Below, one piece after another: positions 42,743 to 47,166 of a stretch of 64,000 nt of DNA. This DNA comes from a bacterium (lineage in GTDB: Bacteria > Armatimonadota > Fimbriimonadia > Fimbriimonadales > Fimbriimonadaceae), in contig PNMZ01000002.1 in assembly GCA_013823945.1 (NCBI GenBank), positions 186,001 to 250,000 on the forward strand, in the 5' to 3' direction. Within the stretch, counting starts at the first letter, position 1. Each line of letters begins with the position of its first letter. Made by a program: the position numbers and the translations under genes. The notes under the pieces are model-generated. The model was given only the letters and a program-made list of their open reading frames with translations. It had not been told where the DNA came from and did not search any database.

Positions 42743-43195
42743 ATGAGCGATTTGAAGAGACCAGTTGTCGAGCTGGAGTGGACGGTTGAGCTGGGTAAGC
42801 AACTGGCTCAAAAGCGGATTCCAGTCGCGATTGCTGGTCTTGTGGCGGCGGGATTTGGGACAGTTTTTATCGGTGCTTTTGGTGCCATGTTGGGGATTGC
42901 GGTTGTGTTTCTTTCGACAGCTGAGCTTTGGATGCCGATGCGCTTTAGGTTGACGAGCGAGGAGGCTTCGGCGCGGGTTGGGCTAAGTGTGACGGCGATT
43001 CGCTGGGAGAATGTTAAGCGGGTTTTGGAGACGGATCAGGGTGTTACGCTCTCTCCGTTAGAAAAAAGTTCTCGTTTGGATGCATTTCGGGGGGTTTATC
43101 TGCGATTTAGTAGCAACCGGAGCGAAGTTTTAGCCAAAATAGCCGAACTTACCGAACGAAATGGAAGCGACCTGGACAGAGAAGCTGACGCCTGA
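42743..43195 (+). CDS. Membrane protein with PH-like tail, block gene 1
   Basis: This 150-residue protein has two close membrane helices (residues ~27-60; VAAGFGTVFIGAFGAMLGI). A C-terminal cytoplasmic domain follows, with FRLTSEEASARVGLSVTAI and WENVKRVLETDQGVTLSP. That strand-helix order resembles a small bacterial PH domain, but this is only a pattern judgement. ATG follows the prs stop without a gap, so translation is probably coupled. It overlaps block gene 2 by 35 bases in another frame. Confidence 0.65.
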   Translation: MSDLKRPVVELEWTVELGKQLAQKRIPVAIAGLVAAGFGTVFIGAFGAMLGIAVVFLSTAELWMPMRFRLTSEEASARVGLSVTAIRWENVKRVLETDQGVTLSPLEKSSRLDAFRGVYLRFSSNRSEVLAKIAELTERNGSDLDREADA

Positions 43196-43535
43196 GGAGG
43201 AAGAGTATTTGATTGCTCAACTGGCTTATGAGGTGAAGCGGCGAAAGATGGAGACACCGGCGGTGTTTTTTATCGAAGCTCACAAGCCTTTGGCGGGGTT
43301 GTCCGAATCTCTTTCGGTGGTATTGACCCCTTTTCTTGCTCCATTTATTGGTTTGGGAAACGTCCAGGGGTATGGTCGCTTGTTGAACAACCGTGATGCG
43401 GTTGATCGTTTGCTATTGGCTTTGGAGGATCCGAGTGATCCGGTGAAGCCAGTGAAACCGCTTTCGATGATGGAAGAGGGAACTGAAGGAACTGCAATGA
43501 CGAGTAAGAATGCTGAGGTGAATTCCGATGTTTAA
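43161..43535 (+). CDS. Soluble protein of unknown function, block gene 2
   Basis: This 124-residue protein has an acidic N-terminal helix (LTPEEEEYLIAQLAYEVKRR). A short hydrophobic patch follows (VVLTPFLAPFIGLGNVQ), then an Asn/Arg-rich helix with LLNNRDAVDRLLLALEDP. There is no signal or clear membrane span, though the hydrophobic patch could sit on the membrane. It overlaps both neighbours (35 and 8 bases). I recognise a recurring pattern (FFIEAHKPLAGLSES) from uncharacterised clusters of other phyla, from memory only. Confidence 0.6.
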   Translation: MEATWTEKLTPEEEEYLIAQLAYEVKRRKMETPAVFFIEAHKPLAGLSESLSVVLTPFLAPFIGLGNVQGYGRLLNNRDAVDRLLLALEDPSDPVKPVKPLSMMEEGTEGTAMTSKNAEVNSDV

Positions 43536-44493
43536 TTGGTTACAAGGGGAACAGTATCTTGATACTGCTCCGGTGGGGATTTTCGTGACCCTTTTGGTGG
43601 TGGTGTTCATCTTGGTGAATATTAGTCGGGCAAAGAAGGGGAGCGAGGGGTTGTTCATTCGCCGAATTTCGGGTTTGAATGCGATTGATGATGCGATTGG
43701 ACGGGCAACAGAAATGGGCCGTCCGGTTTTGATGGTTCCGGGGATTGGGGCGCTTGATGCGATTTCAGTTCAGGCGGTCAACATTTTTGCTCAAGTCACG
43801 AAGTCTGCGGCTCAGTTTTCAACTCCAGTTCGGCTGTGCTGTGGGAATGCGGCGGTTTATGCTTTTGCCCAGGAAGTCATTCGAGACGTTTATTCTCAGC
43901 AAGGGATGGGCGACCGATTTACTCCGGAAACCGTTCAGTACATTTCTGAACAGCAGTTTGCGTTTGCGGCTGGGGTAAGCGGGATCATTCACCGGGAAAA
44001 GGTTGCAGCGACGTTTTTGTTAGGAGCGTTTTATGCGGAGTCGCTGATTTTTGCAGAGACTTCGAACGCAATTGGGGCGATTCAGGTCGCTGGTTCTACT
44101 CAGGTGACGCAGACACCCTTCTTCATTGCGGCTTGTGACTACGTTTTGATCGGGGATGAGTTTTATGCCGCGTCGGCTTATTTGACGCGGGAGCCGGTTT
44201 TGGTCGGATCGTTGGTTGGACAAGACTGGGCAAAAATTCTCGTTGCTAGCACGGTACTTTTTGGGACAGTTTTCCAGTCAGTTGAATTGACGGGAATGAC
44301 GACAGAGCATCGAGCCGGAAACGCAATGGTTTCCGTCGCCGAATCGAGCAACGGAGAGCGGACAGAGGAACGGAAGAAGAAAACCGATACGATGACGAAT
44401 CGCTTGTTCAACCCCTTCATTCCGGAAGAATTGACAAAGATTGAGCGCGAGAAGAAAGAGACAGCACCGGCAACTGAGGGAGAGGGCGAATAA
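43528..44493 (+). CDS. DUF6754-like membrane-associated protein, block gene 3
   Basis: This 321-residue protein has one N-terminal membrane helix (GIFVTLLVVVFILVNI). A conserved domain follows: RRISGLNAIDDAIGRATEMG near residue 50, FTPETVQYISEQQFAFAAGV near 130, and PFFIAACDYVLIGDEFYAAS near 190. A second helix near 230 and a charged tail follow. I associate this pattern with DUF6754, a domain of unknown function; that assignment is from memory. It is probably the core of the block. Overlaps are 8 bases upstream and 1 base downstream. Confidence 0.68.
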   Translation: MFNWLQGEQYLDTAPVGIFVTLLVVVFILVNISRAKKGSEGLFIRRISGLNAIDDAIGRATEMGRPVLMVPGIGALDAISVQAVNIFAQVTKSAAQFSTPVRLCCGNAAVYAFAQEVIRDVYSQQGMGDRFTPETVQYISEQQFAFAAGVSGIIHREKVAATFLLGAFYAESLIFAETSNAIGAIQVAGSTQVTQTPFFIAACDYVLIGDEFYAASAYLTREPVLVGSLVGQDWAKILVASTVLFGTVFQSVELTGMTTEHRAGNAMVSVAESSNGERTEERKKKTDTMTNRLFNPFIPEELTKIEREKKETAPATEGEGE

Positions 44494-45425
44494 TGAACTT
44501 GATGCAATACATGCTGGCTCAGCAGGCCATTGAAGAGACATTTTGGCGAAAGGCACCTGGCCAAGGATTGATTCTTTGGGTGGTCATTGGATTGGCCCTG
44601 GGGACAGGACTTTGTTTCTTGCTTTCAACGGTTCCGACGAATCTGCGAAAGAAAGTCATTTTTACGTTTACGTTCCTTGCGGGATTGCCATATGTTTTGG
44701 CCTTTTTGTGGCCAAGACCGATTAGTGCGGACTTCACGAATGATGTTCCCCGAAACACGGGCGAGCAGATTGGTTTCTTCATCAATCAGGCAGTTGAGCC
44801 GGTTGGAACGTTGACGAATATCCTTGGCGGATTTTTGCTCGGGGTTGGGATTTTCTCCTTGGTACGCGTTCACTCGATCCGGATCAAGCGAAAACAAGAA
44901 AACTGGGGTTACTCCCTTGTTCTGTTGTCAAGCTTTGCGATCATGACGGTGGTCGGATTTTGGGACTGGAGATTGAGAGCATTTGTTGATCAAACGGGGG
45001 CGTTGAACGTGCGGGATAACTGGCAGCCAGTTAACTACGCACAGGATTTGCTTTTTGAAGGGATTTATCAGCAGATGGATTCGGCAATGTTCTCGATGAT
45101 TGCTTTCTTTATCCTTTCAGCTGCATACCGAGCCTTCCGAATACGGAGTGTGGAGGCGACGGTCATGATGGCTTCGGCGTTGATTTTGATGCTGAACCTG
45201 ATGGGTGCACTCACCTATGCATGGGGTGAGGGGATCAACAATTTGGTGGTTCAAACGGGGAATCCGTTCTTGATGAACTTTAAGCTGAACGTTTTTGCAG
45301 ATTGGCTTCGGTCAACGATGCAGATTCCAGCGATTCGAGCGATTGACTTTGGTGTTGGCTTAGGTGCGTTGGCAATGGGTCTTCGGCTTTGGCTCGGTTT
45401 GGAAAAAGGTGGTGTAACGGCATGA
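44493..45425 (+). CDS. Polytopic membrane protein, block gene 4
   Basis: This 310-residue protein has about seven predicted helices, including LILWVVIGLALGTGLCFLL, FTFTFLAGLPYVLAFLW and SMIAFFILSAAYRAF. Loops carry many charged residues on one side, suggesting defined topology. No family is recognised. It starts on the last base of the block gene 3 stop and overlaps the next gene by 4 bases. Confidence 0.68.
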   Translation: MNLMQYMLAQQAIEETFWRKAPGQGLILWVVIGLALGTGLCFLLSTVPTNLRKKVIFTFTFLAGLPYVLAFLWPRPISADFTNDVPRNTGEQIGFFINQAVEPVGTLTNILGGFLLGVGIFSLVRVHSIRIKRKQENWGYSLVLLSSFAIMTVVGFWDWRLRAFVDQTGALNVRDNWQPVNYAQDLLFEGIYQQMDSAMFSMIAFFILSAAYRAFRIRSVEATVMMASALILMLNLMGALTYAWGEGINNLVVQTGNPFLMNFKLNVFADWLRSTMQIPAIRAIDFGVGLGALAMGLRLWLGLEKGGVTA

Positions 45426-46372
45426 CGATTTGGGAAAAGATGCAGAAAGTTGACCGACGCATTTTGTATGCGATTTTGGTCGTGTGCGTTTGTGTTGGGT
45501 TGTTCTTCCCGACCACGATTCCGACTGATCCTGACCCGAGCAGCAAGTCGTTTTATGCAGAAGTGATGAAGCTGGAGAAGGGTTCGACAGTCATTATTCA
45601 GACTGATTGGACGAACAGTACTCGGGGTGAAAGTATGGGGCACTTTGAGAACTTGATGCGGCTGATGATGCACGGTGATCATAAGTTCGTGTTTTATTCG
45701 GCGGCTGACCCGGCGGCTCCCCAGGTAGCGCGGACAGTTCTTGCCCGAATTGTTGCCGAACGCAAAGGGCAAGGGCTCCGGGAATACAAGGTGGGTGAGG
45801 ATTACATTGATCTTGGATTTTTCCCGAACGCCGAAGCGACAAATACGACAATGGGGTCGAACTTGCGCTCAGTTTGGGCCAACAGAAAGTCCAAGACGCC
45901 AACGGGAGGCGAAGTTGATGTTTGGCAAACACCCGTTCTGAAGGATGTCAAGAACATCGGAGATGTTGACATGATGATCGTTGTGACGGCATCGGCTTCG
46001 ATTGATGTTGCGATTCAACGGTTAGCTCAGAAAGTTCCGATTACGGCGATGGTCACGGGGGTTACCGGTCCGGGAGTTTTGCCGTTCTATCAGTCGGGAC
46101 AGGTCAAGGGACTAGCGATCGGGTTGAAAGGTGTTTATGACGTTGAGTATATGATGGTCAACGGCATTAACGATGTTGAAGTTGAAGGCAAGAAAGTTGT
46201 CGAATGGGACAAGGTTGGCAAGGTTGACCGGGTGAACGAAGGAACGACGTTTTCAAGAGGGCGGGCCTATTACGGGACGCTCCATGTAGCGTTAGTTTTG
46301 CTGATCTTGGCGGTTGTGATGGGCAACGTTGCGATGTTTGCGAGCCGACGACGAAAAGGAGATGCAGTCTGA
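45422..46372 (+). CDS. Membrane-anchored protein with extracytoplasmic domain, block gene 5
   Basis: This 316-residue protein has a helix near residue 15 (RILYAILVVCVCVGLFF) and a second near residue 290 (ALVLLILAVVMGNVAMF). About 230 residues between them form an alpha/beta domain with TVIIQTDWTNSTRGESMGHF, VDMMIVVTASASIDVAIQRL and GPGVLPFYQSGQVKGLAIGL. The alternating strands suggest a Rossmann-like or periplasmic-binding-like fold. ATG 45422 overlaps gene 4 by 4 bases and gene 6 starts on its last base. Confidence 0.68.
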   Translation: MTIWEKMQKVDRRILYAILVVCVCVGLFFPTTIPTDPDPSSKSFYAEVMKLEKGSTVIIQTDWTNSTRGESMGHFENLMRLMMHGDHKFVFYSAADPAAPQVARTVLARIVAERKGQGLREYKVGEDYIDLGFFPNAEATNTTMGSNLRSVWANRKSKTPTGGEVDVWQTPVLKDVKNIGDVDMMIVVTASASIDVAIQRLAQKVPITAMVTGVTGPGVLPFYQSGQVKGLAIGLKGVYDVEYMMVNGINDVEVEGKKVVEWDKVGKVDRVNEGTTFSRGRAYYGTLHVALVLLILAVVMGNVAMFASRRRKGDAV

Positions 46373-47166
46373 TGGACTATGATGCAATCAAAATAACGGC
46401 TGGAGTGGTTGCCACGATTGGCCTTTACAGCATCCTCTACAAAGAAAACAAGTTCTACCGCTTCTTTGAGCATGTGTTCTTAGGATTGGCAGCGGGCTAC
46501 ACGATTGTCGCCCAGTGGAAAGACACGTTGTATCCCCAGTGGTGGCTCAAGATGTTTGGTCAGGTTGCAGATGTTGATGCGGCAACGGGCGCGGTGACGA
46601 GCCCGGCGGTTCCGGGGAACTGGATATATGCTGCGATGCTCCCGATTGGGCTTTTGGCATACTTGGTCTTTAATCGGAAGCACAACTGGATGAGCAAGAT
46701 TCCGATTGGAGTTATTTTGGGCCTGTGGTCGGGTCAGCAGATTCAGATTTGGTGGAACACATGGGGCCCACAGATTTACAGTTCAATGCAGCCGATTATT
46801 CCGACAACTTTCAGCACTTTATCGGTGCCGTCTACGGTTGAGGTGGTGAATGGTCGGGTCATGCCGATTCAGGATCCGGTTGCTCTGGCAAACGTTCAGC
46901 AACAGTTGGCGAACAACCTTTATTTGACCCAGGCTTTGACGAACTTCATCTTTGTTTTGACATTCGCCTCCGCGTTTAGTTACTTCATTTTCAGCTTTGA
47001 ATTGAAGGGCAAGTTCTTGACCGGGATCAACAAGTTTGGTCGTTGGATGTTGATGATTGGTTTTGGTGCGATCTTTGGCAGTACGGTCATGGCTCGATTT
47101 GCGCTGGTTATTGACCGGATGAGCTATATCGTCAACGAGTGGGTGCAGGCTCTGACGCAGAGGTAA
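46372..47166 (+). CDS. Polytopic membrane protein, block gene 6
   Basis: This 264-residue protein has about six helices (e.g. WIYAAMLPIGLLAYLVF and MLMIGFGAIFGSTVMARFAL). An extracytoplasmic loop contains many Gln residues (residues ~140-190). N- and C-termini are short. No family is recognised. It ends the six-gene block, and the recO frame begins 36 bases after its stop, so the block may continue into recO. Confidence 0.68.
   Translation: MDYDAIKITAGVVATIGLYSILYKENKFYRFFEHVFLGLAAGYTIVAQWKDTLYPQWWLKMFGQVADVDAATGAVTSPAVPGNWIYAAMLPIGLLAYLVFNRKHNWMSKIPIGVILGLWSGQQIQIWWNTWGPQIYSSMQPIIPTTFSTLSVPSTVEVVNGRVMPIQDPVALANVQQQLANNLYLTQALTNFIFVLTFASAFSYFIFSFELKGKFLTGINKFGRWMLMIGFGAIFGSTVMARFALVIDRMSYIVNEWVQALTQR

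Follow-up and report, generated by a model that had tools for sequence, protein, structure and literature searches.

Six overlapping membrane-block genes and two partner genes as a candidate ATP-driven inner-membrane system in Armatimonadota

The 64,000-nucleotide stretch of DNA analyzed here (the window) comes from a genome of the Fimbriimonadaceae (Armatimonadota) and carries, at positions 42743 to 47166, six overlapping genes that we call A to F. We propose, with a probability of about 0.42, that they encode the membrane part of an eight-protein inner-membrane complex which, together with two further proteins, G and H, is driven by ATP and serves a task in the cell envelope. That the eight genes form one functional unit is very likely; ATP as the driving force is reasonably probable, while transport or assembly in the envelope is a possible but rather doubtful assignment of the task. 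A first-pass annotation, made from the letters of the window, had described the six genes as a membrane block. The block is real, but that description was incomplete, as the putative ATPase G and its partner H lie on other contigs and were missed. With G and H found, the six-gene membrane block becomes a candidate eight-part ATPase system and, taken as one unit, a defined set of proteins to express, purify, and solve. The genes in the window are as follows:

A, 42743..43195, + strand: 150 amino acids (aa); soluble part of weak PH likeness, plus a hydrophobic stretch at the N-terminus; putative accessory subunit; conserved as the first gene of the block
B, 43161..43535, + strand: 124 aa; small and in all likelihood soluble, with a conserved motif, Pa..flE.hkPl; putative accessory subunit; position between A and C, or between A and G-H, conserved
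C, 43528..44493, + strand: 321 aa; DUF6754 protein with a Rossmann-like domain, cytoplasmic by charge, between a predicted membrane helix and another, long helix
D, 44493..45425, + strand: 310 aa; about six membrane segments; without a known family; invariably located behind C
E, 45422..46372, + strand: 316 aa; two membrane anchors flanking a Rossmann-like domain (outside by charge); without a known family
F, 46372..47166, + strand: 264 aa; polytopic membrane protein with four clear segments, perhaps six; without a known family

The A to F block, its families and its distribution

The window genome is 3.16 Mb in size and 99.8% complete, and its C shares 99% identity with the C of Armatimonadetes bacterium Uphvl-Ar1. 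The six open reading frames lie head to tail on the + strand, overlapping by 35 (A/B), 8 (B/C), 1 (C/D), 4 (D/E), and 1 (E/F) bases. The close junction with the upstream gene that the first-pass annotation had pointed out is also there, as A begins with its ATG at 42743, directly after the last base of prs (42742). The ATG start of E sits within a longer TTG frame.

C is a full member of DUF6754 (PF20539), a family without an assigned function, with a score of 301 bits against a cut-off of 27, in agreement with its earlier description as DUF6754-like; 29 residues are invariant among 75 sequences. No credible Pfam or NCBIfam match was obtained for A, B, D, E, or F. When every alignment member of D, E, and F was searched against Pfam, just scattered weak matches appeared, and none of the 74 members of E searched had a Pfam family. 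Sequence profiles of the PDB left D, E, F, G, and H without a credible match, and the sole match for C was an FnIII domain at the N-terminus, seen in a profile that included candidate-phylum members and missing from the C of the window. These family searches assigned none of the genes to a known transporter or secretion system. In the literature searched, no paper named DUF6754, PF20539, or PF13941 (the family of G), and none dealt with this operon or its partners; the system seems to be undescribed.

Hydropathy corrected some of the earlier topologies. Six membrane segments are supported in D rather than the seven first proposed, and in F, thought to have six, four are clear and six are conceivable. 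A shows one hydrophobic stretch in place of the two transmembrane segments expected, and its PH-like character persists only as a weak bPH_6 match (best E-value 5e-4, in 3 of 22 orthologues).

Presence was sampled in 121 Armatimonadota genomes and gene adjacency was counted over 121 loci. PF20539 was detected in 103 of the 121 genomes, mostly as a single copy, and the E and F profiles in 104 each. At 40 Armatimonadota loci, A-B-C-D-E-F were nearly always together and in this order. The block is split in a few genomes; in one of them, which retains both parts, about 300 kb of the same contig separate A-D from E-F. Among neighbouring pairs, C-D (127), D-E (124), and E-F (121) were the most frequent, mostly overlapping or at most 30 bases apart, followed by A-B (70) and B-C (59), and then by H-C (19), G-H (18), and B-G (17). 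This arrangement is not due to chance.

The first-pass annotation had mentioned related gene sets in other phyla, and a neighbourhood search found the homologues together rather than scattered. Among the best 80 of 457 C relatives from one contig scan, at least 11 phyla are represented, a lower bound of the taxonomic range, with the C-D-E-F order kept nearly throughout: Armatimonadota, WOR-3 (Caldifarciminota), Stahlbacteria, Zixibacteria, Poribacteria, Fermentibacteria/Aegiribacteria, Eisenbacteria, Latescibacteria, Edwardsbacteria, Coatesbacteria, and CSSED10-310. Given the presence of its marker gene C in most Armatimonadota genomes and in at least ten further phyla, the system probably has a core function there. 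Among 14 well-known control genomes, none had PF20539 and none had PF13941 above the cut-off, which may explain the lack of study. A quick tree of C mostly tracks phyla, with the Armatimonadota families f10, f20, f25, f26, and f29 clustering with candidate phyla. Entire cassettes occur in tandem at several loci (L105, L115, L123, L125, L138, and L141). At two others, from two Armatimonadota families (L046 and L061), C alone is duplicated in tandem (C-C-D-E-F), a gene order which suggests that C may form a heteromer there.

Partners G and H and joint inheritance

At many loci two genes, G and H, are located between B and C. G, of about 600 aa, matches PF13941 (MutL/GlmL superfamily) over its full length at about 420-430 bits and E-values of about 1e-124 to 1e-128; the G of the window genome scores 429 bits (cut-off 27). 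The phosphate/ATPase motifs DCGSTTTKA, DIGGATTDV, and GSGG are kept, and a weak MreB-like_C match was seen. G is thus predicted to be a MutL/GlmL-superfamily ATPase with an actin/sugar-kinase fold that would hydrolyze ATP. H is a soluble protein of about 375 aa and is strongly conserved, with a mean column identity of 61% among 16 diverse members. Its matches to barrel-sandwich domains are weak, namely RnfC_N in 11 of the 16 members (best E-value 7e-6), NQRA_N in 5 of the 16, and biotin-lipoyl-like domains, and the remainder of H has no Pfam match.

The complete order A-B-G-H-C-D-E-F was found in Armatimonadota (L052, L055, and L056, and with gaps in L053 and L054), in Fermentibacteria/Aegiribacteria (L100, L111, L126, L127, L143, and L147), and in bacteria without a phylum assignment (L123 and L138), while L051 has the order A-B-C-D-E-F-G-H. 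In the window genome, G (C5:211134-212975, - strand) and H (C7:22570-23694, + strand) are on contigs other than that of A to F. G and H also occur naturally fused in one chain. These fusions are divergent paralogues, each combining a MutL-superfamily ATPase with an H-like barrel-sandwich protein away from C-D-E-F and, when fused, about 900-970 aa long:

L176:7803-10724, - strand: fused, 973 aa
L177:5197-7884, - strand: fused, 895 aa
L178:6511-9228, + strand: fused, cut by a contig end
L179:3-2216, - strand: fused, cut by a contig end
L180:2960-5537, - strand: the two genes side by side

The complete set of C, E, F, G, and H occurs in 99 of the 121 Armatimonadota genomes, and another 11 lack every one of these genes. 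The associations are strong in Fisher tests, in which relatedness is ignored (C vs G, p=2.8e-10; C vs E, p=7e-17; G vs H, p=1e-13). Within family f8, all five genes are missing from three genomes of 94-99% completeness and kept by four relatives; family f5 has lost the system as well. In one single-contig genome, G and H are located about 1.45 Mb from C. The five genes are therefore lost jointly even where their loci are unlinked. Outside the Armatimonadota, genomes with C-D-E-F loci carry H in 32 of 34 cases and PF13941 in 33 of 34.

Further genes were noted around G and H. In five Armatimonadota genomes (L160-L164), a recurrent gene directly before H, between G and H, encodes about 210-260 aa that include a hydrophobic stretch; its product is a possible ninth component in that lineage. 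A response-regulator gene adjoins H (L155:9695-10363 and L171:5414-6139) or G (L166:8627-10111), and in the window genome (L155) it overlaps the end of H by 4 bases. The G of the window genome lies just past a flagellar cluster (fliI, fliG, fliF, flgC, and flgB-like; contig C5, L154:11-9976). A flagellar link was dropped, as the presence of FliG does not track the system over the 121 genomes (p=0.20). As to the window itself, GC skew is positive in each 4 kb block of positions 1-64000 (0.15-0.40), and this stretch probably lies on a single replication arm.

Predicted structures and a proposed mechanism

C and E were modeled with AlphaFold2 (AF2). The model of E has a predicted local distance difference test (pLDDT) score of 95.3 and a predicted template modeling (pTM) score of 0.92; the values for C are 85.7 and 0.76, respectively. 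Both models are confident predictions and share one layout, in which a single Rossmann-like alpha/beta domain is preceded by a membrane helix at the N-terminus and followed by another long helix. For E, the model and hydropathy bear out the two anchors with a large domain between them that the first-pass annotation had proposed. Charge distribution would place the Rossmann-like domain inside the cell in C and outside in E; it is uncertain if the final helix of C spans the membrane. With Foldseek, neither model had a match below an E-value of 1e-3. VIA-align matches common to both were CODH epsilon, transhydrogenase dIII, and TrkA domains, with Z-scores of 7.0-8.3 for E and about 10 for C that are within the range of common arrangements, and these shared matches may reflect just a common fold. 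Comparison of the C and E profiles was not significant (probability 1%), and the idea that the two arose by duplication is no more than a suggestion.

In the mechanism that we infer, down to its docking step, direction and substrate, G would bind and hydrolyze ATP in the cytoplasm, acting with H as a single module, and this module would dock onto the cytoplasmic Rossmann domain of C. A conformational change would then be relayed by the bundle that C, D, and F form in the membrane and would reach the Rossmann domain of E on the extracytoplasmic side, as well as the FnIII domain of C in other phyla. G and H are likely the energy input, with C, D, E, and F as the transmembrane core and A and B as accessory proteins. 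In bacteria with two membranes, the likeliest task would be to move a component of the envelope across the inner membrane, or to assemble it there. An envelope role is favored because E has a domain predicted to lie outside, C carries FnIII in many phyla, and TonB-type genes are found downstream of F. That the unit is a trans-envelope machine of an undescribed class, in which a GlmL-superfamily ATPase and a barrel-sandwich coupling protein drive, by means of ATP, a membrane core that bears similar Rossmann domains on the two faces of the membrane, is put forward as a tentative idea; such a class would be kept in Armatimonadota and many candidate phyla.

The TonB-type genes, ExbB/ExbD/TonB-like together with TonB-receptor-like, were seen downstream of F in WOR-3/Stahlbacteria (L112, L128, L129, and L134) and in Fermentibacteria/Aegiribacteria (L111, L126, L127, and L147). 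The TonB-type genes of the WOR-3 group are separated from the cassette by three small recurrent genes, DUF4388/Roadblock-like by eye.

Several points weigh against the proposed ATP-driven envelope complex. ExbD is absent from the window genome, and by phylogenetic profile it is not correlated with the system (p=0.11), which does not support a dependence on ExbD; the TonB neighbourhood may therefore be incidental. The Fisher tests treat related genomes as independent. G is present without C in seven Armatimonadota genomes; four of these are less than 90% complete and the assemblies of the other three consist of 440 to 1060 contigs, and it is plausible, though not proven, that one contiguous block fell into a gap. 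Finally, the transport path via D and F is an assumption.

Alternative explanations and comparison with known systems

The position of A to F behind glmU and prs had been taken as a hint at envelope-precursor or nucleotide-sugar supply, in which the block would work with GlmU and Prs. The junction glmU-prs-A is indeed direct here, recO follows 36 bases downstream of F, and a consensus scan from glmU to recO revealed neither a promoter-like site nor a separating terminator. Yet prs is adjacent at just 15 of the 121 loci and recO at 22, and the named prs-linked hosts are all Fimbriimonadaceae-like Armatimonadota. Elsewhere the upstream genes are unrelated, such as aroK-aroB-like genes in Poribacteria and glycine-cleavage-like genes in Fermentibacteria, as named by reading of the sequences. 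The loci of other phyla contradict supply as a general function, the hint leaves the function unexplained, and we regard this explanation as highly improbable. A better case can be made for a scaffold or positioning platform rather than a pump. PilM, FtsA, and GspL, of the actin-fold platforms of type IV pili, division, and type II secretion, are cytoplasmic actin-superfamily proteins with membrane partners bearing outside domains, and G might likewise organize its partners by nucleotide-dependent binding, with C to F as a passive trans-envelope frame. The actin-superfamily motifs and the weak MreB-like_C match of G are in line with such a role, and a frame could well have domains on either membrane side, but the likeness to these platforms is by analogy only, no homology having been found. 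Moreover, the conserved neighbours include no recurrent pilin, secretin, or division genes, and two polytopic proteins, D and F, exceed what a frame needs; we consider a scaffold unlikely.

The matches of H to RnfC_N and NQRA_N raise the question of a membrane enzyme of ion-motive or redox type, comparable to Rnf/Nqr or transhydrogenase, with H as a barrel-sandwich subunit and dinucleotides bound by the Rossmann domains of C and E, whose fold matches include transhydrogenase dIII and CODH epsilon. The likeness of H is weak, however, its RnfC_N score in the window genome (18.4 bits) being below the cut-off of 25.6; the fold matches are of generic strength, and no other Rnf/Nqr component was recognized by eye among the recurrent neighbour clusters. 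Such an enzyme is quite improbable. Hardly more credit is due to a membrane-bound enzyme with a GlmL-like reactivating chaperone, in which G, with H, would restore the activity of C to F or of a B12-dependent mutase. The accessory proteins nearest to G are of the GlmL/OR-4 type, with PF13941 and the phosphate motifs in common, but G falls well under two cut-offs, with 226 and 217 bits (L052 and L126) against the equivalog cut-off of 475 for GlmL (methylaspartate mutase accessory protein, NF040745) and 223 bits against 600 for OR-4, and also under that of the GlmL subfamily (TIGR01319), with 175 and 159 bits against 204. No mutase gene was recognized by eye, without a systematic search, beside the G and H genes that were read, the G of the window genome among them, or beside the G-H fusions.

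If the ATP-driven eight-protein complex is described as categorically new, this denotes its distance from every system compared and not a proof of mechanism, and the fold of D or F may reveal a distant known relative. The superfamily of G is known from B12-mutase accessory proteins, GlmL of glutamate mutase and ornithine OR-4. In contrast to these, G has a C-terminus about 110 residues longer and is linked to a membrane operon, with no mutase gene recognized beside it by eye. Seen as part of one eight-protein unit, G would tie this superfamily to a membrane machine.

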